From NCBI GenBank assembly GCA_963924555.1, contig OZ004586.1, positions 1,860,001 to 1,924,000 on the forward strand: a stretch of 64,000 nucleotides of DNA, read 5' to 3'. The DNA comes from Crambe crambe (Eukaryota; Porifera; Demospongiae; Poecilosclerida; Crambeidae). The notes below the pieces were generated by a model. It was not told where the DNA came from and ran no database searches. It worked only from the letters and a program-made list of their open reading frames with translations. Both the position numbers and the translations under genes were made by a program. This document shows, one piece after another, positions 1,803-58,569 of this stretch. Numbering within the stretch: the first letter of the stretch is position 1; the number at the start of each line of letters is the position of its first letter.

Positions 1803-3222
1803 CCGGTGTCGCAGTGAATTTTGTCCCCCCCTTAATAGTGTCCCCCCGGACAATATTCACTAGCGAATAATGTCCCCCGGACAATTTTCACCAGTGAATA
1901 ATGTCCCCTTCGGTGAATAATGTCCCCCAGTTTCACGGAAGATCGATGCCGACGATCGTCTTGCGTGTGCACGCGTTCAGTCGAGGACTCGAGATGGAGG
2001 ACTATGATCAGGTCTACGAGTTTTTATTTTCTGGAAGATATCCTGAAAGCCAATGCACACTTCAAGGTAGCTAGCTATAGCTAGTTGCAATTGGCTAACT
2101 AGCTATAGCTAATATAGCTAGAGACTAGCTAGCTATAATTATTACTTCTCTGTTGTTTTTTTTGAAGATTAAAAGAAGTCTTCTGTTTCATTCCAAATCT
2201 GGAAGAAATGAGTGGAGGCAAAAGTTCCAAGAAGTGTTAAGGAAAAGGAGAGGATAGTTACTCAGAGCTTAATTGTCATGGATCTGTTTTCATTATAAGT
2301 GCAAAATAGTAAAACATAGCTATTCATCGACTCACGATGAAGCCAAAACCAGTAACTATAGCTACACTGTAAAAACAAGAGTGTGTACTTTATACCTCAG
2401 GAATGTTCCCTGTAAACAGATAGGTATGCAGTTCATACCTTACTGTTTACAGAGAACATTCCTTAGATATGCAATACACATTTAGAGTGTATATAATGAT
2501 GTTATTTTTCCCTCTCTCTAGATGAATCCAAATCATTCTAGCAGCTCAAAGAGTTGCTAGGAGGTGGGCACAAGATTGGCACGCAAGAGCTATAAAGGGA
2601 AACAATCATCTTGCATGGGATATAAAATATATCTTTACATGCATTCATTACATTGACCTAACATCAGAAGAAGATCAGAAATCTCAAGGAGTGCAGAGAA
2701 CACAACAACACTGGATAAAATTTGCATCTGATCGTTTGAGCATTATATTATTGGCTGGAGAATGGCTAACAGATGCTGTCATTAACTGTGCCCAAATTCT
2801 TAGTACCCTCATATTGGTGGATTTCAGGAGGTATCTCTTTTGGTGAAGTACTAAATTTTAATATTGAAAGGGGGGGGGGGGGATTCATACAGAAATCATT
2901 GGATCACTATTGTCAAACTACCAAAAAGCATCAATGGTGTGAAGTGGCTCTGTCCAAAATGCAACAGCTGCATGTCATGGATCTAATGTTCCAATTATCA
3001 ATCTATGTTTAAGCTTTTACTTATAGATATAATTGAGCACTTATGGCAGTGCATTTTTGAGGGGAGACAAAATATACTGAGTTGAAAAATGTCCTGGGGG
3101 GACATTATTGACTGAAGGGGGACATTATTCACAGGTAAAAATTGTCCGGGGGGACATTATTCACTAGTGAATATTGTCCGGGGGGACATTATTCACTGGT
3201 GATTTTTGTCCGGGGCACCGGT
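1803..3222. mobile_element. TIR element with tgtcccc subterminal repeats and a protease remnant
   Basis: The left end (1803-1930) and right end (about 3090-3222) are inverted copies. Both carry several copies of a repeat of the form GTGAATAATGTCCCCCCGG followed by ACAAT, and both end in CCGGTG/CACCGG. The interior has coding remnants: a start-like exon at 1993 (MEDYDQVYEFLFSGRYPES) ending at a GT donor, and around 2700-3000 stretches resembling a Ulp1/C48 protease core, with GEWLTDAVINCAQ and NHWITI (the HW of the catalytic His region). Stops and frame changes break it. Ulp1-type proteases occur as cargo in KDZ-type DNA transposons (established); assignment here is inference. No clear target duplication was seen. 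Confidence 0.6.
2359..2490. mobile_element. Small hairpin MITE, TAGCTACACTGTAAAA type
   Basis: Arms GGAATGTTCCCTGTAAACAG and CTGTTTACAGAGAACATTCC flank a short loop, and the outer sequence begins TAGCTACACTGTAAAAAC. A second member with the same terminus lies at 33852-33973. This copy is nested inside the 1803-3222 element. Confidence 0.55.
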
Positions 3223-21606: not shown

Positions 21607-23451
21607 TTAATCTGTTTCTGGAACACGACGATGTGATTTGAATTCTTTTGAGTATTTTTTTATAAGTTTTTCTAATGATATCCCAGCCTGATGCCCAAGC
21701 AAGTACCCAAACATATAATTTCGGACTCGTCTGAAATAATTCTGGATATTCACTACTTGAACACTATCCAAACCAGGTACAACATTTCGGCGAAGACCAA
21801 TAATGTTATAGGTACAATAAGCCCTTGTGTATCTCTTGGCTTGGGACCAGCATCGTTCAATTGGGTTTAGTTCGCAGTGGAACTTGGGGATGAATAGGCA
21901 AGGGTGACCTTTGTTATGAAGGAAATATTCTAACTGATTCTTTTCATTTGCAAAGTCAGGATGCTTAAGTAACTCTTCTCTCATATCCTCAACTTTCATC
22001 TTCGAATGATAACATCGCCTTTGTTGCAAAACATCTATCATTCCACGGGGTATGCGAACCCTTTTACCAGTGGGTTTGCGTATAACCTTTGACATCAAAA
22101 TTCGCTTTCCTTGAAATATAGTATCATGCATTATCGGTTGTTTACCACCTTCTTTTGCATTCATGCGATTAACATTTAAAGCATCATCAGCATAAGCCAT
22201 ATGACACTGACTTTGGTCAAAGATCCAAAACAAGCGATAACCTTTTTCTTTGGGATACTTTGCTTCAGCAACTTTCACAGCATTCTTCATTTGGTTCATG
22301 AATTTAGCACTGGTCCAATATCCATCTCGAGCTTCCCCATATTTGAGAAGTGTTCTTGCAGCCATAGGAATATCTGGGTCTGCTTGCTTTGCTATAGCTA
22401 TCATGCTCCGATTTTGTCAAGCAAAGATACCCATCATTTTCAGTAATGAAATCTGATACCATGATACCAGAGCCACGACTTTTTGGCCTGATTACTTGAC
22501 TCTCAGCAGTACCCCACTGCAACCCTTCATCGTCATTGGCATTAAATGTTGATTCGTCATGGAAGATGAAAATATTTTTCCCTCTACGTTCAGGAGGAGG
22601 TGAATCAATATCTGTAGGGAATGCATTCTTTGCTTCATCACTTGGTGCATGTTCTTTGGTTAAAAAAAACCACCAGCAACTAATTTCCGAAGAAATTTTT
22701 TTCGGTTCTTAATTACATCATCTCTTTCATGACCGTCTATGTAGATCCCTTTCTTTTTATCTAATACTTGAAAGCCTAGTTCATGAAGCCATAATCTTGC
22801 TGTTTGAACACTAATTTTTCTTGGGTAGCCAGGCACTAATATACTATTAGGGAGTAGATATTCATTAACCCAGCGACAAAAGCTGATTGAAGTCAGGTTA
22901 GGCTTACCCTTGACTACAGCATTAGCTCTAAAATAATCTGAAGCTGCTTCGTTCAGCTCTTCGTTCTTCCACAAAACACCTTGCCTGCGATACTTTCCTT
23001 GTTGATTATCAGGAAAATTCCCTTCATTTTTGAAGAAAATGTATCTCCATTCACGCACAGTTCGTTCATTTTTACTAATCAAACTGGCAATGCACTGGGC
23101 AGCATCTGTTTGTGAGACCCCACTTACACAAACTAAAGAATAGTGAAGAGTCATTGCAAGAGACATCAAATCATCCTTACTAAGTGTAGATGTCCACTCT
23201 TCAATATGTTCTTGTAAGTAAGTTACTTTCTCCTCATTACTCACTTTGCTTTCTTCCAATATTGAGTCCTGGAGACTCTCTTGCTGGGTGGAGCCCTCAC
23301 TTCGATTCTGTTCCACTGTAGTGTCCTGTTCATCAGTTGTAGAAGTTGAAGGCTGAGCTGAATCACTATCCAGTGGTCTAGCTGACAATTTTTGCTTCTT
23401 TGCCTCTCTAGCCTTGCTCAAATGAATCTTCCTTTTTGTTTTTGGAGGCAT
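21607..23451 (-). pseudogene. DDE_3-type (Tc1/IS630-like) transposase, two frameshifts
   Basis: Reads right to left from ATG at 23451 (MPPKTKRKIHLSKAREAKKQ, a basic start). A Ser/Gln/Glu-rich linker precedes a helix-turn-helix-like part (ISKNERTVREWR) and KKKGIYIDGHERDDV. The catalytic segment shows HDESTFNANDD (first Asp), FDQSQCHMAYADDALN (second Asp) and PKFHCELNPIERCW (third acidic residue, Glu), then a basic tail to TAA at 21607. The motif set fits the fungal/animal IS630-Tc1 branch with HDE...FDQS...HCELNPIE. A change in an A8 run near 22663 and a second frameshift near 22405 split the frame. Both are single-base events, so recent death or sequence error is possible. Confidence 0.8.
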
Positions 23452-23965
23452 ACTTCAGTACTCTCTCTTTCTTGGGCTTTAAATAGAATTTTTTACACGC
23501 GTTAGCCTTAGCAACCAGTAAATATTATGATTTTTTATCTAAATATGCATAATTAGAGCATGCAGAGTAATTTTTTAAATCGTTGTCAAGGTCTAGAAAT
23601 AATGATAGAAATATCAGCGTTATAAAAAAGGTACGCTAAAGCTATAGTGGAGATTTATGCCTTTGTCCACCATATGACAGTGATGAAGACGTACAAGTAT
23701 TCAAAGCAGCAGAGCTGAGACCAAAGATAATGGCTTCTACGTGATAAGATTTTTTTTGGCATGTGTTGTTGATTTATAATTATTATTATTATTGTTATTG
23801 TAAATATTATTATTGTTATTGTTGTTATATCATTGTACTGTAGTTGGTAGTCTTATTATCTTTGTTAGTCTACCCGATGGTTTTTTTTGCTTATTTAGTT
23901 GCTATTATTAGCTGTGTTATGATTGAAACTAAAAATAATCATCATGTATGGCTATGCCATCACTC
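23452..23965. other. A+T-rich spacer, TTA microsatellite
   Basis: Non-coding spacer between the transposase and the GT92 gene. It contains imperfect ATT/GTT runs at about 23770-23830. Nothing else seen. Confidence 0.5.
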
Positions 23966-25291
23966 TTAAGAACATATATTTCTCATAAGCTTGTGAGCAA
24001 ATTTCATTGCTATTTCATCTTCACGAGTATAAATATTTCCACAGTCATGTGGTACTTGATGTCTGTAATGAGCATTAATTCCAATCTCCACAGGGACCTT
24101 ATAAGTCGTATTGTATCCTTTCATAGCCTTGCACATGCGATGAATTCCAGTTTTAAGAATCAGTCTGGGCTTTGATATTGTTTTCGTTCTATACCACAAT
24201 GGTTGTGATTCACAAATAGTCTTTTCAGTTTTAGTTAAGTACTTTGGAACAGTGAAGCCATTACAGTAGTTCGGCATTTTCAATTGAGTTGGAGGATGAT
24301 TCGTGGAGAAAAATGCATGCTGAAACTTGAAGCTTGCATATTTGCCAGCTAGGCTGCTAATGTTCTTGACCATCTCTCCCCAAGTGGAATGGGTCCTAGG
24401 AAGTATCATCTCATCAAGATCTATCAGGGCCAAGTACTCCACTTCATACATGCTCCGATAAAAGCAGTCGCTATTTATCAAGATTTGACCATGGTAGTAC
24501 AGAGAGTCAGCATCGAATGTCCTCCACTGGATTATGCGAACAGTGTCGGGATAACGAGACAAAAGAACACTGGGATCCAATGTCATTGATCCGATGTACA
24601 AAGTGATCAATGAGGCACCCAAAATTTGACTCATTTCTATGAATTCAATTAGAGATTGAAGGAAAATCTGTTTTGTAGTGCTCTGGATGACTGCACCTCC
24701 AAGACACACCCCAAATTTCCCTGCAATATCAGTCTCTTTGCTGATATAGCGATTTCTGACCAAAATTTCTCCTGATGTTGATGTACGTTTATAATTCATG
24801 GAAGTGCTAATCATAACTGAAATGGGAGGCTCGTCATCAACAGAATCGACATCACAATACAAGTGCAAAGTGTTCTCCCAAATGCTTGGAGCTAAACAGT
24901 CTCCAGGATACCTCCAATGACCTGGTGTCCTTGAACACATTATGCTTCCATTAGGGAACTTGAAGACACAGTAGAGATCTGTTTTTTTAGTATTTTTACT
25001 GATGTAACCCATGACGATAACAGCTGGCCTGTGAGGTGCAGGCTTCCTATTATCATAGTAAGCGGAGAAAAAATGATACGAGTCATTCTTTCTATGAATT
25101 GAAGTCCAATGATTCTTTCTATGAATTGAAGTCCAATGAAGTTGCTCCACTGGGTCTGGGGGTTTCTTAGTTGCACTCTGATTCAGTAGTCTGGCATAGC
25201 ACCGCCCACCGACTTGAGTAGTGGTCTGGTGACATACAATACAACGAGTTGTGCCGTTTAGCAGGAAAACTGCTAAATCAATGAATATCAT
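23966..25291 (-). CDS. Glycosyltransferase family 92 (DUF23) protein
   Basis: A single open frame of 441 residues read leftward from 25291. GT92 signs are in order: KFGVCLGGAV, the YYHGQILINSDCFYR block, LALIDLDEMILPR (a DxD-like acidic motif expected to bind metal and sugar nucleotide), a SFKFQHAFF block, and HYRHQVPHDC near the end. GT92 enzymes are Golgi type II membrane proteins that transfer galactose to glycans (established for several animals); the substrate here is unknown. The N-terminus is odd: residues about 13-39 lie in an 80-bp inverted repeat, only a weak hydrophobic stretch (FIDLAVFLL) replaces a clear membrane anchor, and HWTSIHRKN is duplicated by a 27-bp tandem repeat. The true first exon may be elsewhere. 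Confidence 0.75.
   Translation of the reverse strand: MIFIDLAVFLLNGTTRCIVCHQTTTQVGGRCYARLLNQSATKKPPDPVEQLHWTSIHRKNHWTSIHRKNDSYHFFSAYYDNRKPAPHRPAVIVMGYISKNTKKTDLYCVFKFPNGSIMCSRTPGHWRYPGDCLAPSIWENTLHLYCDVDSVDDEPPISVMISTSMNYKRTSTSGEILVRNRYISKETDIAGKFGVCLGGAVIQSTTKQIFLQSLIEFIEMSQILGASLITLYIGSMTLDPSVLLSRYPDTVRIIQWRTFDADSLYYHGQILINSDCFYRSMYEVEYLALIDLDEMILPRTHSTWGEMVKNISSLAGKYASFKFQHAFFSTNHPPTQLKMPNYCNGFTVPKYLTKTEKTICESQPLWYRTKTISKPRLILKTGIHRMCKAMKGYNTTYKVPVEIGINAHYRHQVPHDCGNIYTREDEIAMKFAHKLMRNICS
25084..25137. repeat. 27-bp tandem duplication inside the GT92 coding region
   Basis: Two adjacent copies of the 27-mer containing attctttctatgaattgaag add nine residues in frame (HWTSIHRKN twice). Confidence 0.9.
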
Positions 25292-25567
25292 TAAATGACG
25301 TTTAATGACGTAAAATTACGCAAACACTTGGCGCCTTTTCCTGTAAGTTCGCGCGCTAAAATTGTACTTGCCATGCGTGCCAATTAAATTAAGAATAACT
25401 ATGACAACTGTGATGTCACTGGCTGATTATAATACCGCTTCCTACGACACTTCCTGTTAGTAACGCGCGTGCGCATTAGAATCCGCCGGCACAACTCGTT
25501 GTATTGTATGTCACCAGACCACCTACTCAAGTCGGTGGGCGGTGCTGTGCCAGACTACTGATTCAGA
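25176..25567. repeat. Inverted repeat, 80-bp arms, spanning the GT92 5' end
   Basis: Arms 25176-25255 and 25487-25567 are near-perfect inverted copies (for example CACCGCCCACCGACTTGAGT and its inverse, GACATACAATACAACGAGTT and its inverse). The loop is about 230 bp and contains the apparent GT92 start codon. The left arm is coding. Confidence 0.9.
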
Positions 25568-25709
25568 GAGAGTAGCCTTATGGTCAACACACAGCACATG
25601 ACGATCACCACCATCAGAGACTTCAAACTTTGAGTCTCGCCCATGAATCAATTCGAGCTGGTCATTTAGAGGAAACCTGCAGCTGCAGCAATGTCATTGT
25701 TGTGCCTGT

Positions 25710-28700
25710 TGTAGCGTGCTGAAATGGCTCCGTGCCAGAATGGCTGATTAACCCCGAGACAGCGGAAATACCTAATTCTAAATAACGCACACCTATATAT
25801 AAACATGCGCGCGCTTATTGAGTAATACTTGCATTTAGCTGTTGAACTGGATGCAGTTTACATCACTGTACTAGACTTTAGCTACAGTTAGCTAGTGAGC
25901 CATTCTGGCATGCATTTACTGCTTGATTATTATTGTAGACTTAAGTGGCAGTTTATCAGCCATTCTGGCACTGTGCAGTTATTTAGTGAGCCATTCCGGC
26001 ATATTCACATAGATCTTATTTGTAGACTAGTTATATAGCTAGCTAGTTATATTCAGAGCCATTCTGGCACCATGATGCAGTTATTATTGTAGATTTTTAG
26101 CTAGCCATTCTGGCATGCATTTGGCACACAGTTATCATCATTAAAGTGAGCCATTCTACATGCAGTTCATAGATTCTTATAGTGAGCCAATCTAGCATGA
26201 GCCGATCCATGCGGTATGCAGTTATTATTATAGACTCTATACAGTGAGCCATTCTGGCACACAGTTATTAATATAGACTCTATATAGCGAGCCATTCTGG
26301 CATGCAGTTATTATTATAGACTCTATACAGCGAGCCATTCTGGCATGCAGTTATTAATATAGACTCTATACAGCAAGCCATTCTGGCACGCAGTTATTAA
26401 TATAAACTCTATACAGCGAGCCATTCTGGCATGCAGTTATAAATATAAACTCTATACAGCGAGCCATTCTGGCACGCAGTTATAAATATAGACTCTATAT
26501 AGCGAGCCATTCTGGCATGCAGTTAATAATATAGACTATAGCGAGCCATTCTGGCATGCAGTTAATAATATAGACTATAGCGAGCCATTCTGGCATGCAG
26601 TTGTTATTATAGACTCTATTATAGCGAGCCATTCTGGCACGCAATTTTTATTATAAACTCTATTATAGTGAGCCATTCTGGCATGCAGTTATTAATATAG
26701 ACTCTATATACGAGCCATTCTGGCATGCAGTTATTAATATAGACTCTATACAGCGAGCCATTCTGGCATGCAGTTATTAATATAGTCTCTATATAGCGAG
26801 CCATTCTGGCATGCAGTTATTATAGTAGTGAGCCATTCTGGCACACAGTTAATAATATAGACTATATAGGGAGCCATTCTGGCATGCAGTTATTATTATA
26901 GACTCTATTATAGCGAGCCATTCTGGCACGCAGTTATTAATATAGACTCTATATAGCGAGCCATTCTGGCACGCAGTTATTAATATAGTCTCTATATAGC
27001 GAGCCATTCTGGAACGCAGTTATTAATAGACTCTATACAGCGAGCCATTCTGGCACGCAGTATTATAGTCTCTATATAGCGAGCCATTCTGGCACACAGT
27101 TATTAATAGATTCTATACTGCGAGCCATTCTGGCACGCAGTTATTAATATAGACTCTATATAGCGAGCCATTCTGGCACGCAGTTATAGACTTTATAGGG
27201 CAAGCCATTCTGGCACGCAGTTATTAATATAGATTCTATAGTGTGAGCCATTCTGGCACACAGTTATTAATAAACAATTATTATTATAGACTCTATAATA
27301 GCGAGCCATACTGGCATGCAGTTATTATAGACTCTATATAGCGAGCAATTCTGGCACACAGTATTTAATATAGATAATTCTATATTGTGAGCCATTTTGG
27401 CATGCAGTTATTATTATAGACTCTATTATAGTGAGCCATTCTGGCATGAAGTTATTAATATAGACTCTATATAGCGAGCCATTCTGGCATGCAGTTGATA
27501 ATATAGACTCTATATAGCGAGCCATTCTGGCATGCAGTTATTATTATAGATTCTATATAGCGAGCCATTCTGGCGCGCAGTTATTATTATAGACTCTATT
27601 ATAGTGAGCCATTCTGACATGCAGTTATTAATATAGACTCTACAGCACGCCATTCTGGTGCACAGTTATTATAGTGAGCTATTCTGGCATGCAGTTATTA
27701 ATATAAACTCTATACAGCAAGCCATTCTGGCACGCACTGCGAGCCATTCTGGTACGCAGTTATTAATATAGTCTCTATATAGTCAGCAATTCTGGCATGC
27801 AGTTATTAATGCCATTCTGTGTGCCAGAATGGCTCACTGTATAGAGTCTATATTAATAACTGCATGCCAGAATGGCTCGCTGTATAGAGTCTATTAATAA
27901 CTGCATGCCAGAATGGCTCACAATATAGAGACTAGCTATATTAATAACTACGTGCCAGAATGGCTCGCCCTATAGAGTCTATAACTGCATGCCAGAATGG
28001 CTCGCTGCATAGAGTCTATATTAATAACTGCGTGCCAGAATGGCTCGCTCTATAGAATCTATATTAATAATTGCATGCCAGAATGGCTCGCCCTATAGAG
28101 TCTATATTAATAACTGCATGCCAGAATGGCTCGCTGCATAGAGTCTATTAATAACTGCGTGCCAGAATGGCTTGCTATATAGAGACTATAATAACTGCAT
28201 GCCAGAATGGCTTGCTGTATAGAGTCTATATTAATAACTGCATGCCAGAATGGCTTGCTGTATAGAGTCTATAACTGCGTGCCAGAATGGCTCGCCCTAT
28301 AGAGTCTATAACTGCGTGCCAGAATGGCTCGCTGCATAGAGTCTATATTAATAACTGCGTGCCAGAATGGCTCGCCCTATAGAGTCTATATTAATAATTG
28401 CATGCCAGAATGGCTCGCTATATAGAGACTATATTAATAACTGTGTGCCAGAATGGCTCGCCCTATAGAGTCTATATTAATAATTGCATGCCAGAATGGC
28501 TCGCCCTATAGAGTCTATATTAATAATTGCATGCCAGAATGGCTTGCCCTATAGAGTCTATATTAATAATTGCATGCCGGAATGGCTCGCTATATGGAGA
28601 CTATATTAATAACTGCGTGCCAGAATGGCTCGCCCTATAGAGTCTATATTAATAATTGCATGCCAGAATGGCTCGCCCTATAGAGTCTATATTAATAATT

Positions 28701-29737
28701 GCATGCCAGAATGGCTCGCCCTATAGAGTCTATATTAATAATTGCATGCCAGAATGGCTCCCTATATAGTCTATATTATTAACTGTGTGCCAGAATGGCT
28801 CACTACTATAATAACTGCATGCCAGAATGGCTCGCTATATAGAGTCTATATTTATAACTGCGTGCCAGAATGGCTCGCTGTATAGAGTTTATATTAATAA
28901 CTGCATGCCAGAATGGCTCGCTGTATAGAGTTTATATTAATAACTGCATGCCAGAATGGCTCGCTGTATAGAGTCTATATTAATAACTGCATGCCAGAAT
29001 GGCTCGCTGTATAGAGTTTATATTAATAACTGCGTGCCAGAATGGCTTGCTGTATAGAGTCTATATTAATAACTGCATGCCAGAATGGCTTGCTGTATAG
29101 AGTCTATAATAATAACTGCATGCCAGAATGGCTCGCTATATAGAGTCTATATTAATAACTGTGTGCCAGAATGGCTCACTGTATAGAGTCTATAATAATA
29201 ACTGCATACCGCATGGATCGGCTCATGCTAGATTGGCTCACTATAAGAATCTATGAACTGCATGTAGAATGGCTCACTTTAATGATGATAACTGTGTGCC
29301 AAATGCATGCCAGAATGGCTAGCTAAAAATCTACAATAATAACTGCATCATGGTGCCAGAATGGCTCTGAATATAACTAGCTAGCTATATAACTAGTCTA
29401 CAAATAAGATCTATGTGAATATGCCGGAATGGCTCACTAAATAACTGCACAGTGCCAGAATGGCTGACAAACTGCCACTTAAGTCTACAATAATAATCAA
29501 GCAGTAAATGAATGCCAGAATGGCTCACTAGCTAACTGTAGCTAAAGTCTAGTACAGTGATGTAAACTGCATCCAGAATAATAGTCTTCAATAGCTAAAT
29601 GCAAGTATAATTGTATTACTCAATAAGCGCGCGCATGTTTATATATAGGTGTGCGTTATTTAGAATTAAGTATTTCCGCATTCTCGGGGTTAATCAGCCA
29701 TTCTGGCACGTGCACGGAGCCATTTCAGCACGCTACA
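25710..29737. mobile_element. 4-kb inverted-repeat element made of a 43-bp satellite
   Basis: Left arm (25710 to about 27820) and right arm (about 27822 to 29737) are inverted relative to each other. Each has a unique end of about 190 bp and then dozens of tandem units of about 43 bp. The unit consists of GAGCCATTCTGGC, ATGCAGTTATTAATA and TAGACTCTATATAGC, so it carries small hyphenated palindromes (GCCA-ttc-TGGC, ATAGA-c-TCTAT). I count roughly 90 units in all by eye. The outer ends are TGTAGCGTGC and GCACGCTACA, and CCTGT occurs directly outside both (25705-25709, 29738-29742), consistent with a 5-bp target duplication. The arms switch at a perfect junction near 27811-27832. No coding frame. 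The right end is about 86 bp from the gene B TATA box. Confidence 0.9.
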
Positions 29738-29823
29738 CCTGTTGTTGTTCTCGCTCGGCCCGCCCCCCTAGCTGGCCCTCTTGACCACACCCCCGAGATT
29801 GAGCTCCTCCCACTAATAGTCCT

Positions 29824-29833
29824 TATAAATAAA
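29824..29833 (+). promoter_or_regulatory. TATA box of gene B
   Basis: TATAAATAAA lies 49 bp before the ancestral ATG at 29882. It is the only such box in the 140 bp between the 4-kb element and the gene. Confidence 0.55.
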
Positions 29834-29881: not shown

Positions 29882-32800
29882 ATGGGTTGATTGAATGCTT
29901 ATCGAGTTATCCTAGCTTTTCTAATAGCACTGTTTTCCAGCAAAGTGATTCCATCTTCAGCTGAAACAGTTTTTATAAACGACAACCTCAGCCTGGAAGA
30001 GTACCTATGCCCTCCTAACAGAACTCTCCCTCCTGATACCTATCTCGTGCTCACAGAATCCCGATTGCAGATTGAAAATGCACATGAGTTTTGTCATATT
30101 CAGAATACTTCCAATATAACGATTTCTTCTTCACAAGAGTTGAATGAAAGTACTGAAATCAGGTGCGGCAAAGAAACTCTTGTAGGGTTTGGGTTCTTCA
30201 ATGTCAGCAATCTTACCATGGAGTCAGTTTCATTTGTTGGTTGTAATAATATTATCCCGGATATTGCTGTAAGGTTCATAAATGATACCAATCATTTCAT
30301 GTACTACGATGCAACAGAGACAATGCTAATCTTGAACCACTGCTATGATGTCAAACTTTATGATCTCAAATTTTTTTCATATTTCATCGGCCCAAGCATT
30401 ATTGGAGTGAACTTATGTGGACACAGTGAAATTAGTAAACTAGCATCCTATGCTAATATGCCAATTGATATGTTGTTTTATTACACAGACAGTGAAATGT
30501 CTGTGGATCCTGAATGCAATTTAAACATCGAATTTGATGCTTATATGTGCAATCCATCAGTGCCGCAGTTTTATGAAAGTTTTGTTGATGAAAAACCAAA
30601 TCGTATTCCTATACCTCAAATCAGTGGGTTTGTTCTAATGCTGACTCAGGAAAAGTTTGATGTAAGTATTGATGTTACCATAACACCAGTACAAAATTTA
30701 ATAGGATTTTTTTTTATAACTAAAGCAACATTATTGTTTGTTAACAGCAAAACTAACTCTCACGTCGTTTTCCAAGGGCTCCCATTTGACTATTGCTATA
30801 ATGAAACCATGTCATTGGAAGACGACTATCTTCCATTAGATATCAGCGTGGTGTTTTATGAAACTCCCTCATTTAATACTTCAGTTGATGATACTAATGT
30901 TATAAACTCGATAACTATACAACACACTTCACTTATTTATTACATGTACCTACATCAATCACAAATTATATCTAGTTATGATAAAGTGCTTTTAGTGGAC
31001 AATTTGTCAGAGAAAATTGCTCATCAAATTACACTGGAAAAAGTATCTTGGTGTAGAAGAGAAGTGATAAGTATAGGCAAATTCAAAACTGGTGAATCTC
31101 TTGATACTTTTCAATTTATAGCACCAAATTTACTATATGCGCAAACATCAACCATTAATGGATATTTGAGTATCAAAATATCTGATGTGTTCATGTGGTA
31201 TGACACCCAATATGATGTCTTTCTTCAAACATCCCAAAGTTATCTCAGATTCATCAATATCAAGAACATCACAATCTGTGGAACGAGCTACTTTGCTGCA
31301 AATGGTGGTGGATCCATCATGAGTATCGAATCCAGTAATTTGACCATTACTGGGGATTTGACTGTTGTCGGAGGAGATGGATTTCAAGGTGGAGGAATGA
31401 AATTGGAAAGATCTACTCTACTCCTAAAAGAACCTCTGGAAGCTCGATTCTATAACAACACAGCTTATCAAGGAAGTGCTATTTATGTGTCTATCCCCAC
31501 ACAGAATTCTATGCCAAGTGGTGAATGTTCAATACAGATATTGCCTTATGAGAGGTATCTCCCGGGTAACATAACTGACATCGAAATAGCACTGGATTTC
31601 CAAAATAACATCAATAAGGTATCAAATCAAAGTGTTTCGTTATATGCCCCACTATTCAATTTTCTTTGCCTACAGACATCCTCGAATTTGAACTTCAGTA
31701 ATGATGCTTGGGATGACTTCCAAAGACAATATACAACCCTCATTGATACGATTTTTAATGACACCAAAAAATCTGATAAATTCACATCCCTTTCCAATGG
31801 AATCTGCATGCAGTTTCCAAGACAACAACAGAAGTGCTTATATATTGATGAAGTTCACAGTGGTGGGGCAAATTACTTGGAAACCATTCACAGCTACCCT
31901 GGAGAAAGAGCAATTTCAATAATCCTAGCAAGTGATCAAGAATATGGTTTGATGCAAGTTAGCTGTGGGAAGAATCCCAGACGAAGGGAAAAGTCAGAAT
32001 TCAAGTATCATTATTTGACAAGAAATGTCTCAACCCTGTCTGTCACGTTTCTCAACAAAGCAGAAAGAGTCCTCTGTTTCCTCTTTTATCTTACGAATAC
32101 CGATATTCCTCAGCTTTCATTTCCACTTCTTAAAATAGAACTGAATAACACCTGTCTTTTTGGCTTTTATTTAACTGACAGCATCTGTAAATGTACTCGA
32201 GAAATGCAACGTCTGGGCTACGAATGCAATATTGATTCTCAAATGTATTCCAGTCCACCAGGATACTGGACAGGCTCTAATGCTAACAATAATACTATTT
32301 CATACAATCACATTTGCCCACCTAACTATTGTGACCCGAAATTCCAGGATTTCACTTTGAATGACTCCATTACTGATCTATCCTGCCTCAGCAATCGCAC
32401 TGGAATCTTATGTGGTCAGTGCAAGGAGAATTACAGTGCAGTATTTGGATCTGATGCCTGCTATGACAACTGTACTGATCTCTATCTCCTCACTCTCCTA
32501 ATGTATGCTATAGCCGGACTCATTCTAGCGGTGCTTCTCTTTGCATTACGTCTCACCGTAGCAACAGGGATCATCAATGGAGTTATATTCTATGCCAATA
32601 TTTTGGGCCTACTTATGGATGAATTGACAAGAGATTACTCTGGTGTACACATGGCATTCTTTCGTATTGTTATCTCACTACTCAACCTTAATCTTGGTTT
32701 TCCACTCTGCTTCTATAAGGGAATGACTACTACTGCTAAAGTAGGATTCCAGTTCATATTTCCTGTGTATCTATTGAGCATTATAGTTGGAATGATTATC

Positions 32801-33440
32801 ATATCGAAATAAGGGTATCTAATTTAATATCGAAGTCATCAGTACAAGTCTTGGCTACCCTTTTCTATCTTTCTTTTTCTAAACTCTTACAGACAGTGAT
32901 AGATGTGATCAGTTCCTCCACCATCAACCTGGTTATATATCATCCCTATAACTCGTCACTTTATAACACTTCAGAAAGAGATGTGTGGTTTTATACTGGT
33001 GAAGATTACGGCCATGGTATTCATGCTCTTTATCTAGCTCTTGCTATCGCTTTCATTGTTCTATTTTTGCTTCCTTATGCTATTCTTGTCACCTTCTCTT
33101 ACTACTTAGTGAGGTTCAAGCTGGTTAACAAATTCAAACCCATCATAGATGCTTATGGTGGCCCTTTCAAGGATAAGTGGAGGTTGAGTTCTACATAGTC
33201 TTTCATCATGATTCTGAATTTCTTGCTGGTGCCTATGTGTTCTTCCTGAGCATATCAACTGTTGCGATATTTCTCATCTTAATGCTTCACTTTTGCTATG
33301 TATGTGTATCCTGGAGAAATCCGAAAATACTTCTTTACCAAAAGTTTAGAGGGTATGAAGCCATTGGAGATGAATCTCATGAGGATGCTGATGGAGAAGT
33401 AATCAGGGCAGCAGATAAGAGGATTGATTCGGAATTATAA
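29882..33440 (+). pseudogene. Gene B: paralogue of gene A, with different lesions
   Basis: Same build as gene A: hydrophobic leader (VILAFLIALFSSKVIPSSA), Asn-glycosylation-rich beta-helix-type ectodomain, Cys-rich NRTGILCGQCKENYSAVFGS, then membrane helices. The main frame runs 29891-32812. Lesions: the ATG at 29882 is followed by GGT TGA, an in-frame stop at codon 3, and no other ATG precedes the leader; a 7-base deletion near 32808 (missing gtattcc against gene A) ends the frame; and about 215 bp are deleted near 33180, removing roughly three membrane helices. The final segment (33184-33440) continues in another frame to a conserved cytoplasmic tail. The ectodomain is intact, so decay may be recent. 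None of these lesions is shared with gene A. Confidence 0.8.
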
Positions 33441-34060: not shown

Positions 34061-34273
34061 ATTCTACAATACTATTATTATTCTTTATGGTAACTAAATT
34101 AATTGTGATCATGTGAATTATTGTAGAAGCTATTCTACAATACTATTATTATTCTTTATGGTAACTAAATTAATTGTGATCATGTGAATTATTGTAGAAG
34201 CTATTCTACAATACTATTATTATTCTTTATGGTAACTAAATTAATTGTGATCATGTGAATTACCATAAAGAAT
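34061..34273. repeat. Three tandem copies of a 71-bp unit
   Basis: The unit begins attctacaatactattatta and is repeated three times with almost no differences; the third copy diverges at its end (gaattaccataaagaattct). Confidence 0.9.
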
Positions 34274-51335: not shown

Positions 51336-52173
51336 ATGATGATTTTCTCATCGATTTTATTTCTCTCTCTTTTTCCTCTCATTATTCCAGCAGGTTCGTA
51401 CATCTTGGGCAGCTGTTGGCAGCTGTTGCTACTACACATCATTATCTTATTAATGCGTAGGGTCTGCAGTTGGACAGAGTCTGAAGGTGACAGAGCGTAA
51501 TGGGAGCAGTGTGTTTGTGGAGTTACTGAGAGGGAGGGACGGTCTCCCAGGGAGAGATGGGGTACAAGGACCTGTTGGCCCCCCTGGAATTCCTGGGAAA
51601 CAGGGATCCCCTGGACCACGCAGTGGGGGTGCTATCTACACCAGGTGGGGGAAGAGTTCCTGTCCACAAGTGGAAGGCACTCAGATAGTCTACTCTGGAA
51701 TCACTGGAGGCACATTTTATAATCAACCAGGAGGTGGAGCCAATTACCTCTGCATGCCCAAGGACCCAGAGTACAACCCCACCCTCAGATATGGACATTT
51801 AGTGAGAGAACGTGCTATCATGTATGGCACAGAATACCAGAGTCCTTTACAGGGACTGATCGAACATAATGTGCCCTGTGCTGTGTGCCATGTGTCCACT
51901 AGATTAACCGTACTCATGATCCCAGCCAAGGCCAGCTGCCCTCCCACATGGACCAGAGAGTACTATGGTTACCTCATGTCAAATAGTGTACATGCTACCC
52001 ATGGACGTTCGATGTTTGAATGCGTGGATGCTGACCAGGAGTCCTTGCCTGGCACTCAAGTCAATACTAACGGTGCTCTTTTCTACCATGTGGAAGCAGA
52101 CTGCAACACTGGTCTTCCCTGTCTGCCATATGTTGGCAACAAGCAACTCAACTGTGTGGTGTGCACCAATTAA
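51336..52173 (+). CDS. Short-chain collagen C4-like, copy 1
   Basis: Two exons, 51336-51393 and 51461-52173. Exon 1 encodes MMIFSSILFLSLFPLIIPA, a signal peptide; exon 2 gives the mature protein, about 257 residues in total. A Gly-X-Y stretch (GRDGLPGRDGVQGPVGPPG, about 11 triplets) is followed by the conserved Cys-rich domain of sponge short-chain collagens: IYTRWGKSSCP, YSGITGGTFY, GGGANYLCMP, PCAVCHVSTR, MIPAKASCPPTWTREYYGYL, FECVDADQE, LPCLPYVGNKQLNCVVC. Secreted; related C4 proteins are sponge exoskeleton/matrix components (established for freshwater sponges). The splice donor here is GTTCGT, weaker than GTGAGT in the sister genes. Confidence 0.9.
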
Positions 52174-52344
52174 TGACATGAGAAAAATTAGCATCTACTT
52201 ATCATTGTGATTTTATGGGTTGATTTCCATAAAACTATAGCAGATGTAATGTACACCCAATCTTCAAGTCATGGTAAAAAAAAAATTGAATAAATAGCTA
52301 AATAAATAAATTTTCAGTTGCTATAATATTATAGCTATAAACAC

Positions 52345-52706
52345 AGGGGTGGATACGGGGGGGGGGGGGGGGGGGGGGGGGGCGGTGCACCCCTCCTCTC
52401 ATTTCAATTAACTATGCTCAAAAAATAGCTAGTTAGTAGAATGCACTTAGCTATCCTGTTTTTGCCTCTCAAATTGAGTAGAAACATTTCCCCCTTGGCC
52501 TGTCCTTTATGCCCTGGCCTTTTCTTTGAATCTAAGAGAATCAATTTTCCCGGGGGAGCATACCTCTGGACTCCTAGATGGTGCACTTTGTGTGCTGTGT
52601 AGCCTACCTTCTAGTTTCTAGCCCAAATTAAAATTTTTCAATGGAACCCTGGCAGTGGTCTTATGGTGCACATGCCCCTCCTTTTCAAATTCCTGGATCC
52701 ACCCCT
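52345..52706. mobile_element. TIR element with a G26 tract
   Basis: CAGGGGTGGAT at the left and ATCCACCCCTG at the right are inverted ends of hAT-like CAGGGG type; AAACA is found directly outside both ends. A run of 26 G starts at 52357. No coding frame. Confidence 0.55.
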
Positions 52707-52939
52707 GAAACAGTGCAACAGCAGGAAACTGTCATGGCTGGCAACCAGTGTGTCGATTATTGTGAAAGTGAAAATGCTCATTGCCCCTATACTAACATGT
52801 ACATAGCTACATAAACAGAATAAACTCAGGATTGGATCTGTCCTGTAATATTATTCCATCCTTTAACAGCTTAGATACTGTGTGTATTACACATCTATAG
52901 TTATCACTACACCACAGGAGTATTTACCATTCAAGTCTC

Positions 52940-53400
52940 CTACCCCCTTTCTGTCACTCGACAGAATATGTTATCTGCTCGTGCAGAAGTCCATCTTATC
53001 ATAAGAGTATTTACCATTCAAGGTCAACTCTCCTACCCCCTTCTGTAACTCAACAGAATGTTATCATGAGTATTTGCTCATGCAGAAGTCCCAAGAGTAT
53101 TTACCATTCAAGGTCAACTTTCCTACCCTCTTTCTGTCACTCGACAGAATATGTTATCATGAGTATTTGCTCGTGCAGAAGTCCATCTTATCACAAGAGT
53201 ATTTACCATTCAAGGTCAACTCTCCTACCCCATTTCTGTCACTCGACAGAATATGAGTATTTGCTTGTGCAGAAGTCCAGTAAACTGCTTCTTATCACAA
53301 GAGTATTCACCATACAAGGTCGACTATCCTACTCTGATAGCTACTACCCTCTCTCTGTCACTCGACAGAATGGGCTATCTAGATTATTTCCTTGTGCAAA
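52940..53400. repeat. Tandem repeat array upstream of collagen copy 2
   Basis: About five units of roughly 90-120 bp, each with CTGTCACTCGACAG, then AATATGTTATCATGAG, TATTTGCTCGTGCAGAAGTC, and an agtatttaccattcaaggtc block. Palindrome positions: 52951, 53043 (degenerate), 53134, 53236, 53355. Candidate regulatory array for the collagen genes. Confidence 0.8.
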
Positions 53401-53492
53401 AATCTAGTGAACTAATTGTATGTTGGTTTTGTCACACAACAAATTCTTCTGCCATGGAAATGTACGCATGCATCAACTTGTCACAGGAGCAG

Positions 53493-53500
53493 TATAAAAG
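53493..53500 (+). promoter_or_regulatory. TATA box, collagen copy 2
   Basis: TATAAAAG about 112 bp before the ATG. Equivalent boxes occur before the other copies: 51239, 55493, 56710, 59555 and 63415, all as TATAAAA(A)GG or close. Confidence 0.65.
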
Positions 53501-53604
53501 GGACCAAAAGTTAGTCTTAGTGCATATCGTTGTTCCATTGCAAATTTCGACATTTACAAGCGTTTCGTAAAATTACAGCTGATTTAGCCAAACTGCAAGC
53601 AGAA

Positions 53605-54455
53605 ATGATTTGCTCATCAATTTTTTTCAGCTCTCTCCTTCCTCTCCTCATGATTCCAGCAGGTGAGTATATAACAACTGTATCTCAGCAGCTGTTGCCA
53701 TAGAGCTAGTATGAACTATACATTATTAATGTGTAGGGTCCGCAGTTGGACAGAGTTTGAAGGTGACAGAGCGTAATGGGAGCAGTGTGTTCGTGGAGTT
53801 ACTGAGAGGGAGGGACGGTCTCCCAGGGAGAGATGGGGTACAAGGACCTGTTGGCCCCTCTGGAACTCCTGGAAAACAGGGTCCCCCTGGACCACGTAGT
53901 GGGGGTGCCATCTACACCAGGTGGGGGAAGAGCACATGTCCACAAGTGGAAGGCACAGATATTATCTACTCTGGAATCACTGGAGGCACATTTTACAGCA
54001 ACCCAGGAGGTGGAGCTAATTACCTCTGCATGCCCAAGGACCCAGTGTACAGCAACACCCTCAGATACAGAAATAATTTAGGGACAGAGCGCACATTCAT
54101 ACATGGCACAGAGTACCAGTCTCCACTGCAAGGATTAGTCGAACATAACGCACCATGTGCCGTGTGCCACGTGTCCACAAGACCAACCGTACTCATGATC
54201 CCAGCCAAGGCAAGCTGTCCTCCCACATGGACCAGAGAGTACTACGGCTACCTCATGTCAAGTAATAGTCACTATAACGACCAAAAACGTACGATGTTTG
54301 AATGTGTGGATGCTGACCAGGAAGCCTTACATGGCACTCAAGCCAATACTAATGGTGCCGTTTTCTATCACGTTGAAGCAGCTTGCAACACTGGTCTTCC
54401 CTGTCTGCCATATGTCAGCAACAAGCAACTAAACTGTGTGGTGTGCACCAAATAA
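53605..54455 (+). CDS. Short-chain collagen C4-like, copy 2
   Basis: Exons 53605-53662 (signal peptide MICSSIFFSSLLPLLMIPA) and 53737-54455. The mature part has the Gly-X-Y run (PGRDGVQGPVGPSGTPGKQG) and the same Cys-rich domain, with NRNNLGTERTF-type variation before EYQSPLQGLVEHNAPCAVCH and a longer variable loop (SSNSHYNDQKRTMFECVDAD). All Cys of the family are kept. Donor GTGAGT, acceptor TGTAG. Intact. Confidence 0.9.
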
Positions 54456-54893
54456 CGAATGAACTGAGAACAAAAAAATTAATTATAGCAAAATTCATAG
54501 CTAATCTAGCTATCTACTTATCATTGTGTACGGGTGATTTCTATTGTAGCATAAAAAAATGAATTGTACTATATGTACACCCAATGTTCAAATTGTGGCT
54601 CACCACCTAACAATCCTATAGATGTGGTCACTATCTAGTGTCACATGCACTGTCACAGCCATGTGGGTGGGGACTGTTGTAATTAGAGTCTGTGTTTCAT
54701 AGGATATACTTTACAAACTGATAAACCACTTGAGGGAGTTGATGACCGTGTACATGTGGTCATCTCTGTTTGGTTAGAAGAAGGTGCCCTTCAGTTCAGC
54801 TATCTGCTCTGAATCACTTGTCACTCGATAGAATGGGTCATCATGACTATTTGCTTGTGCTTGTCCGACCAGAAGTCCAGTAAACTACTTCTC
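54456..54893. other. 3' flank of copy 2, duplicated after a later copy
   Basis: About 54590-54880 recurs almost unchanged at 59150-59450 and more weakly at 57745-57990, so the duplication unit included gene plus downstream DNA. Nothing coding seen. Confidence 0.6.
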
Positions 54894-55032
54894 GATGTTT
54901 GAATGTGTGGATGCTGACCAAGAGTACTTACATGGCACTCAAGCCAATGTTGAAGCAGCTTGCAACACTGGTCTTCCCTGTCTGCCATACGTTACTAACA
55001 AGCAACTCAACTGTGTGGTGTGCACCAATTAA
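54894..55032 (+). pseudogene. Collagen C4-like C-terminal fragment
   Basis: Encodes only the last 45 residues (MFECVDADQEYLHGTQANV, then CNTGLPCLPY and CVVCTN, stop) with a short internal deletion. No promoter, signal or Gly-X-Y part precedes it. Confidence 0.85.
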
Positions 55033-55619
55033 ATAATGAATGAACTGAGAACAAAATTAATTGCATATCAATTTATGTGATACACCTTATCATAAGAGGA
55101 AATATGGTTACCAGTAGAGGAAATGTGGTTGATGATGAAATCAAACTACTCACTCTGTGGGTGGATGTGTCACTGACCAGTCCAATTAATAACTAGGAAA
55201 TTGTAAGCATATAATATAGCTACGTACATGTCTATGCCACCACCAGGATAGGATGTGGTTGCAGCACTGCTTTGGAGTACAAATGCTGGTGGAGCCTATG
55301 AATTGAACTTCCTTTAGACCACTCACTACATTAGTTACCAACCACATACCTCACTCTATTATCTGTTCTATGCGATGGGATGTGACCAGTAAACTAATAA
55401 TTACTAGAAGTTCTCAAGACCAAAATATATATACACATGCACATGTACATTAAAAGTAGCTATATATTCTAGCTAGCCTGGAGTATAAAAAGGCACAATT
55501 TCTTAGAACAGGTATGGCCAGTGTGAAATGATTCACATAATATTAATTGTTATAGCTGCAAAAACTACTCAACACTCAACACAATTATTAGCTACGAAGC
55601 TGCATGCAAACAATTGAAA
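55033..55619. other. Collagen array spacer
   Basis: Non-coding. Words such as gtggttaccagtagaggaaat and aaccacatacctcactct recur in the spacers at 56340-56480 and 63250-63350, indicating shared ancestry of the intergenic units. Carries the TATA box of copy 3 at 55493. Confidence 0.5.
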
Positions 55620-56061
55620 TGATTTGCTCAACAATTTTGTTCATCTCTCTCCCTCTCCTCATAATTCCTGTATGCTGTTGCCCATAGGTACACATCATTT
55701 TATCTGTAGGGTCTACAGTTGAACAGAGTCTGAAGGTGACAGAGTGTAATGGGAGCAGTGTTTATGGAGTTACTGAGAGGGAGGGATGGTCTCCCAGGGA
55801 GAGATGGGGTACAAGGACCTGTTGGTCCCCCTGGAACTCCAGGGAAACAGGGTCTCCCTGGACCACGCAGTGGGGGTGCCATCTACACCAGGTGGGGGAA
55901 GAGCATGTGTCCACAAGTGGAAGGCACAGATATCATCTACTCTGGAATCACTGGAGGCACGTTTTACACTACCCCAGGAGGTGGAGCCAATTACCTCTGC
56001 ATGTCCAAGGACCCAGAGTACAGCTCCACTCTCAGATACAGAAATAATTTAGGGAGTGGGC
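55620..56061 (+). pseudogene. Short-chain collagen, copy 3, truncated
   Basis: A TATA box at 55493 and a signal-peptide exon (MICSTILFISLPLLIIPV) remain, but the exon runs into a changed splice region (TAG|GTACAC). The second exon (from about 55710) has a 2-base deletion near 55761, and similarity stops near 56061, losing most of the Cys-rich domain. Confidence 0.8.
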
Positions 56062-56828
56062 TAAACCAAGCAGAACTTTTACACTGACATGAACAATTAG
56101 AGTAGCTTGGTGGGAGGCAGTGATGTAGGGATTATTAATGAAGGCAGCATAATTTTGATATTTGTTCACAGAAACTGCTGGACTAAGCCTACATGGGCTT
56201 TTTATTTAGCATAAATTTTTTTTCCTTTCACTTGTTAAACTAGTAATTAAACTAGCTACTTCCAGAAGTTGTAAGAGTGCTTTCTTAAATATGCATATAC
56301 AAGTATAACATACATGGGGTCATGCAGGATCATTTGCATGGTGCTAACACCAGCACAGGAAAATAATGTGGTTACATGCAGCACTGTTGTGGAGCAAACG
56401 TCAGTAGTGAAGCCAAACTTCTGACATTAATGATGAATTAAGGCTATATACTTTTATCCCACTCACTGCATTATAGTTACTAACCGCATCCTCTATTGCT
56501 TAGCATCATAAAGCATTATTATGTGTCAGGTGTATTATTACACAGATGCAAGCATGCAACATCTGTTACAGCCATTCATTATGCAGGAAGGATATGACCA
56601 GACAATAAGAGTGCTTTGTCAGTATGAAGGTGTATGCAACATCTGTTCCAGCCACTCATTCTGCAGGATGGATATGACCAGAAGTCCTTCAGCTAGCCTT
56701 GTGGAACAGTATAAAAAGGACAATTGCTTAGAAATAGCTATATATAGTCAGTGTGAAGTGATTCACAGACTGTTAGAGCTACATCTCCTGCAGTACATAC
56801 TCAACAAAGTTAACTGCAACCAGTTGAA
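56062..56828. other. Collagen array spacer and copy 4 promoter
   Basis: Non-coding. Holds a direct duplication of about 48 bp (gcaacatctgttacagccat near 56548 and gcaacatctgttccagccac near 56636) and a TATAAAAA box at 56710, about 112 bp before the copy 4 ATG. Confidence 0.55.
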
Positions 56829-57644
56829 ATGAGTTTCTCTTCGATTTTGCTAGTCTCTCTCCTTCCTCTCCTCATAATTTCAGCAGGTGAGTTGCTAACA
56901 TATCTCAGCAGATGTTGTCATAGTTTATTTGCAGGGTCTGCAGTTGGACAGAGTCTGAAGGTGACAGAGCGTAATGGGAGCAGTGTGTTTGTGGAGTTAC
57001 TGAGAGGAAGGGATGGTTTCCCAGGGAGAGATGGGGTACAAGGACCTGTTGGCCCCCCTGGAACTCCAGGGAAACAGGGTCCCCCTGAACCACGCAGTGG
57101 GGGTGCCATCTACACCAGGTGGGGGAAGAGCACATGTCCACAATTGGAGGGGACTGATATAGTCTACTCTGGAATCACTGGAGGCACATTTTACACTAAC
57201 TCAGGAGGTGGAGCCAACTATGTCTGCATGCCCAGGGACCCAGAGTACAGCACCACTCTCAGATATAGCAGTAATTTAGGGCATGAACGTGCATTTATGC
57301 AAGGCACAGAGTACCAGAGTACTCTACAGGGAGCATATCAACATAATGCACCCTGTGCTGTGTGCCATGTGTCCATAAGACCAACCGTACTCATGATCCC
57401 AGCCAAGGCCAGCTGTCCTCCCACATGGACCAGAGAGTACTATGGCTATCTCATGTCAGATGCTAGGGCCCATAAACGTACTATGTTTGAATGTGTGGAT
57501 GCTGACCAGGAAGTCTTGCATGGCACTCAAGCCAATACTAATGGTGCTCTTTTCTACCATGTTGAAGCAGCTTGCAACACTGGTCTTCCCTGTCTGCCAT
57601 ACGTCAACAACAAGCAACTCAACTGTGTGGTGTGCACCAAGTAA
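56829..57644 (+). CDS. Short-chain collagen C4-like, copy 4
   Basis: Exons 56829-56886 (MSFSSILLVSLLPLLIISA) and 56935-57644. Same architecture. One collagen triplet has lost its Gly (GPPEPRSGG, expected GPP-GPR). The 48-bp intron is a multiple of three and has no stop, so unspliced RNA would still give a full-length protein with 16 extra residues after the signal. The Cys-rich domain is complete. Confidence 0.9.
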   Translation: MSFSSILLVSLLPLLIISAGELLTYLSRCCHSLFAGSAVGQSLKVTERNGSSVFVELLRGRDGFPGRDGVQGPVGPPGTPGKQGPPEPRSGGAIYTRWGKSTCPQLEGTDIVYSGITGGTFYTNSGGGANYVCMPRDPEYSTTLRYSSNLGHERAFMQGTEYQSTLQGAYQHNAPCAVCHVSIRPTVLMIPAKASCPPTWTREYYGYLMSDARAHKRTMFECVDADQEVLHGTQANTNGALFYHVEAACNTGLPCLPYVNNKQLNCVVCTK

Positions 57645-58089
57645 CGAATGAACTGAGAACAAAATTATAAATTACCTAAACAATTCTAGCTTGATTGTGT
57701 AGCTACGAATATAATATCTGTTGTAGCATTTTTTATACTAAATGTATATACCCAGTGTTCAAGTCATGGCTTATCAGTCATCAGACGTTGTCATTAATAT
57801 CACATGCACTGTCATAGCCATGCATGGGTGGGCCTGCTGTAATTAGAGCTTGTGGTTCATAAGATATATGGACTGATGAAGCCACTTGAGGGAGTTGATA
57901 AGTTTAAGACTGTGTACATGTGGTCATATCTATTGGTTAGAAGAAGGGCACTGAATTTACCCCTCAGCTCACCTGTCTGCTCTAAATCAGGGGGACCAGA
58001 AAAATGCACAAAAATTGTGATCAAATGATTGTGACTAAAAGAAATTCTGGATGACATAGCTACACATAGCTATGTAGATATTGCGATTC
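57645..58089. other. Collagen array spacer
   Basis: Downstream flank of copy 4, partly similar to 54590-54880 (for example cacttgagggagttgat). No gene seen. Confidence 0.5.
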
Positions 58090-58412
58090 CCGATAGCATA
58101 CATACGTGGGGATGCCATCTACAGTAGGTGGGGGGAGAGCACATGTCCACAAGTGGAAAGCACTGAAGTAGTCCACTCTTGAATCACTGCATGGAGCTAT
58201 ATTATTCACCAGGAGGTGGAGCTAATTACCTCTGCATGCCCAAGGAAGCTGTCCTCCCCACATGGACCAGAGAGTACTATGGCTATCTCATGATAAGTAG
58301 TAAGTCCTACCTCATCATCATTATTTAATATATCAAGTAATGACGACCAGAAACGTATGATATTTGAATGTGTGGATGTTGACCAGAATGTCTTGCATGA
58401 CACTCAATAATG
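58090..58412 (+). pseudogene. Collagen C4-like relic, copy 5a
   Basis: Pieces of the Cys-rich domain coding sequence (ctgcatgcccaagg, acatggaccagagagtacta, tttgaatgtgtggatg) with large internal deletions, frame changes and a stop in place of the end. Confidence 0.8.
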
Positions 58413-58569
58413 GGTGCCAGAGGAAAGGGGATGTATTATTGTCAAAGAAAAGGGCTGACAAACGAACACTTGATCTTCTAGAAGCAGTTTACTGCATGAG
58501 CAAATATTCATTCTGTCAAGAGGTAGTAGTTATAGGTGCTCTTGTGGTATAGTGTGGTATAGTACAGTT

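Follow-up and report, generated by a model that had tools for sequence, protein, structure and literature searches.

Structure of the Element at the Locus

The window analysed here, a stretch of 64,000 nucleotides from the sponge Crambe crambe (GCA_963924555.1, contig OZ004586.1, positions 1,860,001 to 1,924,000), carries at 25710–29737 an element of 4028 bp composed of two mutually inverted arrays of a 43-bp satellite. The element ends in TGTAGCGTGC/GCACGCTACA and is flanked on both sides by CCTGT, an exact 5-bp duplication, as a previous inspection of the letters alone (hereafter, the sequence-only reading) had described. Its features, in window coordinates, are as follows.

25705–25709, no strand: target-site duplication CCTGT, left copy; a single copy is present at the empty paralogous site C9:1834739–1835062
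25710–29737, no strand: whole element, read as a non-autonomous foldback-type transposon of 4028 bp, with arms, arrays and no frame of ≥ 180 amino acids (aa)
25710–25751, plus strand: left terminal segment, two tandem copies of TGC(T/C)(G/A)(A/G)AATGGCT(C/G)
25897–27797, plus strand: left arm, 43 units of 43-bp period with GCCA-TTC-TGGC, in plus orientation
27798–27821, no strand: centre, where the orientation switches
27822–29526, minus strand: right arm, 39 units in minus orientation
29690–29737, minus strand: right terminal segment, 6 bases longer than the left one
29738–29742, no strand: target-site duplication CCTGT, right copy

The inverted satellite repeat was borne out by the pairing of the arms, with 98% complementarity across 694 nt (25847–26540 against 28883–29576), and by Tandem Repeats Finder, which reported a period of 43 in both 26218–27671 (34.2 copies) and 27822–29207 (33.0 copies). 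When diverged units were allowed, the count rose to 43 plus-strand units for the left arm and 39 minus-strand ones for its counterpart, and each tip held two further units in the opposite orientation. The resulting total of 82–86 is slightly lower than the roughly 90 units of the sequence-only reading, whose description of a many-unit array otherwise stands. The orientation of the units flips once, near 27800, where just ca. 24 bp separate the last units of the two arms. The palindrome GCCA-TTC-TGGC, previously noted in the satellite unit, was seen in the arm units, and the outermost 42 bp of the element contained two copies of the core motif of the unit in an orientation opposite to that of the adjoining arm. 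No stop-to-stop frame of ≥ 180 aa was found inside the element.

Insertion of the Family as a Unit

A search of the host genome (143 Mb, 119 contigs) with a 19-base end pattern and up to three mismatches returned 49 matches, compared with two for a reversed control pattern, a difference beyond chance. Paired ends were not restricted to the window, as 14 of the 30 places with 0–1 mismatches formed seven facing pairs. Two of these pairs, the 88-bp copies on C10 and C13, represented one insertion duplicated along with its flanks. Six independent insertions were thus recognised: the window element (4.0 kb), the copies on C1 (8.8 kb), C5 (8.7 kb), C6 (8.4 kb) and C13 (18.7 kb) and the 88-bp mini-element, which holds little beyond two terminal segments. 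The paired copies have in common a terminal segment of ca. 42 bp, and in all five kilobase-sized copies the arms are opposed arrays of the 43-bp satellite.

Target duplications were tallied over these six insertions, all with well-kept paired ends. The tally excluded the C10 88-bp copy, whose flanks equal those of the C13 one, and three short relict pairs with 2–3 mismatches; most remaining single ends (e.g., on C3, C8 and C20) lay outside the pairing count. Exact 5-bp duplications (CCTGT, CAAGT, CCACT, CCCTC and ACCTC) flanked five of the six insertions, and the C6 insertion had the lone exact 6-bp duplication (TACGTG). Among the relicts, C9:6322484–6322558 had an imperfect duplication (AATGC/AATGT); by eye, the ends of C12:1899023–1899091 were irregular and no duplication was recognised at C5:7660800–7660840.

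For all six insertions, the same genome also holds a paralogous site that is uninterrupted and has the target in single copy. The identities between occupied and empty sites, computed without gaps, were 100% across a 112-bp stretch for C6, 99.4% and 98.9% for C13, 98.9% for C5, which has indels close to the junction, 98.4% for C1 and 90.6% for the mini-element. The empty site of the window element lies on the same contig, ca. 51 kb upstream of the element, and was 93.5% identical (82% with gaps). An assembly artefact would not yield target duplications matched by empty sites, which argues that the inverted arm is not such an artefact. The family therefore inserts as a unit with a 5-bp, and once a 6-bp, target duplication, and the window element is a real, gene-less mobile element; transposition as one body, as proposed from the sequence, is strongly supported at each of the six insertions examined. 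The sequence-only reading also entertained a putative hairpin RNA, if the element is transcribed, and a putative cruciform.

The arms could theoretically be ordinary satellite DNA that arose by a local inverted duplication, the ends and CCTGT being coincidental. The 43-bp arrays do gain and lose units, as satellite DNA does. However, identical ends at six independent places, together with exact duplications and empty sites, make this explanation extremely unlikely. The distribution of the satellite also speaks against it. Among the listed part of 397 matches, the satellite lay within family copies except at two places, C18:3925903–3926575, beside decayed integrase and end pieces, and C6:6723532–6723868, ca. 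1.6 kb from an end-related piece.

An Integrase-Bearing Relative

The sequence-only reading had suggested looking for a transposase-bearing relative with the same ends, and one was found at C13:2249332–2268064. This 18.7-kb copy has 43-bp arrays in both arms, each array ca. 4 kb long (94 copies on the left and 85 on the right, or 99 and 89 units when counted by motif), around a core of ca. 10 kb. The core contains one unbroken stop-to-stop frame of 855 aa (P0001) and no second stop-to-stop frame of ≥ 120 aa. The sole domain found in P0001 by a Pfam scan was the rve integrase core (E 5.8e-14). Across 31 aligned relatives, D281 and E317, with 35 residues between them, were invariant and D216 was nearly invariant. 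Searches of the PDB by sequence and by structure returned retroviral integrases, foamy virus first, and foamy-virus (PFV) and Ty3 integrases led the structure search.

Several smaller features of P0001 were compared with those of known integrases. A YPYY-type motif was present as FPFY, a form that seven of the eight relatives checked do not match and that occurs in the remaining one only well away from where it would be expected. A stretch resembling GPY/F was recognised by eye. No Pfam match to an H2C2 domain was obtained in P0001, and its second histidine was not seen by eye. Three short open stretches downstream of P0001, all on its strand, resembled a Ulp1 protease in the expected order (WLND, HWMLMV...D and QTNSNDCGVF). 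Two of them matched positions 79–121 (E 0.0033) and 163–176 (E 0.12) of PF02902, both below the curated cut-off; the first piece had no PF02902 match, and tblastn with four Ulp1 relatives gave chance-level matches only. The pieces may be spliced exons or remains.

The size of the C13 copy and its rve integrase recall Polintons (Mavericks), and the TG..CA ends recall long terminal repeat (LTR) elements, so a Polinton or a relic LTR retrotransposon with inverted long repeats was considered. Polintons carry polymerase B and have a 6-bp target duplication. Here, the duplication is 5 bp in five of the six insertions, and the C13 core has a single frame of ≥ 120 aa. A Pfam scan of that frame and seven others (of the 24 frames of ≥ 60 aa) detected no polymerase, capsid or reverse transcriptase. 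Since the long repeats are moreover inverted and the homologues bearing a reverse transcriptase group apart in the integrase tree (see below), this origin is very unlikely.

Further places with > 50% identity to P0001 were recognised in the genome. A near-identical integrase with two stops lies on C5, preceded by a left end and no fewer than 188 array units. On C18, a decayed cluster (3947208–3950739; mostly 76%–90%, one piece 60%) is followed by arrays and a right end, and an older cluster (3927962–3928847; 51%–57%) is preceded by arrays and end pieces. Two short pieces were found on C16. In one copy, the integrase frame is enclosed by the arms; elsewhere it lies next to arrays, and all integrase places on C13, C5 and C18 adjoin 43-bp arrays or family ends. 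The other genome matches listed for P0001 were < 35% identical, most of them in long frames, as would be expected of retrotransposons.

A separate observation concerns the left arm of the C5 copy, which is interrupted after 118 bp by a stretch of ca. 1.6 kb (L010:214–1787). This stretch holds a 57-bp tandem repeat and looks like a nested insertion.

Read in the opposite orientation, the ends of the C13 copy recur without a mismatch in the 8.4-kb C6 copy, over 508 and 647 bases. The middle of the C6 copy, oriented accordingly, shares 99.7% identity with 760 bp of the C13 core. To judge from these alignments, the C6 copy is a deletion derivative of the C13 element that has lost most of the core. 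The differences between their arrays come in steps of 43, 129 and 218 bp, accompanied by a few small ones of 1 bp or 4–10 bp, a pattern indicating that array change between near-identical copies largely involves whole units. The window element belongs to a sister subfamily with the copies on C1, C5 and C8, whose ends are 97%–99% alike. As to a possible homogenisation of the arms within one copy, the comparisons pointed both ways. In the outer 330 bp, the left end of the window element is nearer to the right end of C1 (99.4% identity) than to the right end of the window element itself (98.0%). When 700 bp are compared, the two ends of the window element are the closest pair (99.0%), ahead of C5 right (98.7%), C1 left (97.5%) and C1 right (89.1%), the last of which has an array of another length.

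Relatives of the Integrase Protein

Among 43 homologues of P0001, eight list a Josephin domain (PF02099; ataxin-3-type deubiquitinase), four list Ulp1 (one protein listing both); a reverse-transcriptase domain is listed by just the four weakest. The tree comprised 42 of the 44 proteins (P0002 and P0019 failed a region filter) and was rooted at the midpoint. Three Josephin-bearing proteins were the partners of P0001 (92/84), all within a larger group of 15 members (100/99). The homologues bearing a reverse transcriptase formed a separate group (100/99), with long branches flagged. Because no named Ginger or TDD-4 sequence was included, the label "Ginger-like" used below rests on features.

The Josephin-bearing homologues are P0003, P0004, P0005, P0007, P0010, P0012, P0014 and P0032. 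Of five that were rescanned, four exceeded the Josephin cut-off and P0014 fell just below it. Given this frequency (8 of 43), stretches of the family were searched with a profile derived from five Josephin-bearing integrase relatives. A Josephin deubiquitinase in the family was rejected, as no match appeared in the seven stretches scanned (two on C13, two on C5, and one each on C18, on C6 and in the window), the C13 core included. No description of an integrase combined with Josephin was found in the literature searched; the available part of PMC9741609 names Josephins only as a class of deubiquitinases and describes other deubiquitinases in Helitrons.

Surroundings of the Element in the Window

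The neighbours named in the sequence-only reading were recovered. A GT92 gene was identified by Pfam at 23966–25315. On the other side, a receptor-like frame of 973 aa (29891–32812, plus strand) begins, from stop to stop, 154 bp from the element; its ten best relatives measure 1192–1294 aa, which is consistent with a decaying gene. The TATA box placed within 90 bp corresponds to a TATA-like string at 29824, 86 bp from the element, and the exact string is absent from the empty paralogous site of the window element.

Other features were noted in the window. At 1812–3215, repeats of 31–32 bp (consensus GGGGGACATTATTCACTGGTGAATATTGTCCG) are inverted on both sides of ca. 1.2 kb, forming a smaller second element-like structure that is foldback-like; no likeness to the element at 25710–29737 was noted. 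Two adjacent minus-strand frames at 21607–23454 resemble a transposase gene; the downstream one has a weak match to DDE_3, whose E of 3.7e-05 does not reach the curated cut-off. A perfect 71-bp tandem repeat of 2.8 copies occupies 34061–34262, the start and end of its unit being roughly inverted sequence. A row of four similar short-chain collagen-like frames extends over 51454–60666, and the first of them matches Pfam Collagen below the cut-off.

Comparison With Known Transposons

The sequence-only reading knew of no named family of this design. This claim fails because the architecture is that of the known Foldback type, exemplified by Tetris and Galileo, in which inverted repeats are built from tandem repeats. 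Both hallmarks of that type were found here: long terminal inverted repeats (TIRs) built from tandem repeats in the five kilobase-sized copies, and movement as a unit with target duplication. Thus, the unusual feature of the family is its enzyme class, whereas the foldback architecture is already known.

As described in the available sections of the respective papers, Galileo has a P-superfamily transposase with a THAP domain, a 7-bp duplication, up to three repeats of ca. 210 bp and TIRs of up to ca. 1.25 kb, and the tandem repeats of its TIRs contain extra transposase binding sites (PMC3573991, PMC3688188). The family described here resembles Galileo in its foldback-like tandem-repeat TIRs, in arm length that tracks the number of repeats and in copies consisting of just two TIRs, but combines them with an integrase and 5–6 bp duplications. 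Tetris, assigned to Mutator by its authors, resembles the family in being a foldback element with tandem repeats in its TIRs, repeats that have sequence in common with the terminal domain and give rise to satellite DNA (PMC4079207, in part); its repeats are 220 bp long and its duplications 8–10 bp, in contrast to 43 bp and 5–6 bp here.

Ginger1 uses a Gypsy-like integrase as its transposase and, in the portion of the description available, has TGTNR ends, H2C2 zinc finger, YPYY and GPY/F motifs, a C-terminal OTU or Ulp1 domain, 4-bp CCGG/CCGT duplications, TIRs of ca. 40–270 bp and lengths of 2.6–7 kb (Bao et al. 2010; PMC2836005). The family shares with it an rve/DDE integrase without reverse transcriptase (in the C13 copy, the window copy being gene-less), and the 5′ TGTNR terminus (here TGTAG); the YPYY-type FPFY of P0001 and the Ulp1-like pieces, which fall below the cut-off, may be further likenesses. 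Nevertheless, it does not belong to Ginger1 in duplication length (5 or 6 bp), TIR length (kilobase satellite arms, with an exact terminal identity of 113 bp) or element size (18.7 kb). Ginger2 lacks YPYY and GPY/F and has TIRs of 45–297 bp among the table rows seen; no satellite arms are mentioned for it in the available text of PMC2836005. Ginger2, TDD-4 and TDD-5 have an integrase-type enzyme and TGTNR ends, and the 5-bp duplication of TDD-4 and TDD-5 fits that of the present family apart from the one 6-bp exception, in a comparison made by features and not by tree. The literature searched, which did not extend to Repbase and subscription papers, yielded no foldback element that carries this class of integrase.

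Proposed Mode of Transposition and Implications

The best explanation, to which we assign a probability of roughly 0.85, is that the window copy is a non-autonomous member of a family of foldback-type DNA transposons, in which the likely autonomous member codes for a Ginger-like, retrovirus-type integrase. This integrase would pair both ends, cut next to TGTAG...CTACA and join the ends to staggered target sites 5 bp apart, and gene-less copies such as the window copy would be mobilised in trans. The palindrome GCCA-N3-TGGC, which occurs both in the ends and within the satellite unit, is a putative binding site of the element's own protein, so the arms might act as multi-site recognition arrays or platforms. 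This idea follows the analogy with Galileo, whose tandem repeats contain binding sites. Arm length would shift mainly through the gain and loss of whole units.

Several observations weigh against this explanation. The fold model of P0001 was modest (mean predicted local distance difference test, pLDDT, 67; predicted template modelling score, pTM, 0.42), and its target-normalised TM-scores were 0.37–0.39 when PFV integrases were taken whole and at most 0.76 for their cores. The two ends of the C13 copy share their outermost 113 bp exactly and are divergent from there up to the arrays. The ends of the window subfamily are 82%–85% identical to the C13 left end and 73%–75% to its right end, and no integrase-bearing copy with the subfamily's own ends turned up. 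The motif did not clearly stand out as better conserved than its surroundings in the unit: conservation was near-uniform in one test, and a second test, in which the anchor counts units on both strands, gave the motif an advantage of 2 to 12 points. To judge from the 88-bp copy, the arrays may be dispensable for mobility, unless its arms were lost after insertion. Finally, 150 scored rve integrases, out of 586 first-look candidates, lay mostly in retrotransposon-sized frames, and because such integrases are common in this genome, an rve frame within one element does not on its own prove that it moves that element.

This abundance also favours the alternative that the foldback element is moved by an unrelated transposase (e.g., a Mutator-like one) and that the C13 integrase is a captured passenger, as does the fact that the link between enzyme and ends is drawn from sequence. 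However, the 5–6 bp duplications and TGTNR termini suit integrase-type elements, not the 8–10 bp reported in the part of the Tetris description available (PMC4079207). The integrase furthermore co-occurs with arrays or ends at two near-identical and two diverged places, and the C13 core offers no other stop-to-stop frame of ≥ 120 aa. A passenger integrase is therefore unlikely, and the integrase-encoding foldback family remains the preferred explanation.

Arrays accompany integrase copies down to 51%–57% protein identity, and one arm reaches at least 188 units. There is about an even chance that the family represents a distinct integrase-class transposon lineage in which arrays of its own recognition site, in satellite form, have become a durable component of the terminal repeats. 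If this is true, it would provide a foldback element in which the integrase frame is unbroken, as well as an integrase-driven source of satellite DNA. For some foldback elements, the enzyme that moves them is unknown or lacks a working form: in the sections available, no autonomous copy was found for Tetris (PMC4079207) and no functional transposase for Galileo (PMC3573991, PMC3688188). Alongside a candidate autonomous copy with an unbroken integrase frame, the genome of C. crambe contains the deletion derivative, copies dominated by their arms, the minimal copy of 88 bp and the empty targets, which makes possible a direct test of why some transposons turn their ends into satellites. The family would add the foldback form to integrase-type transposons, relatives of retroviral integrases.
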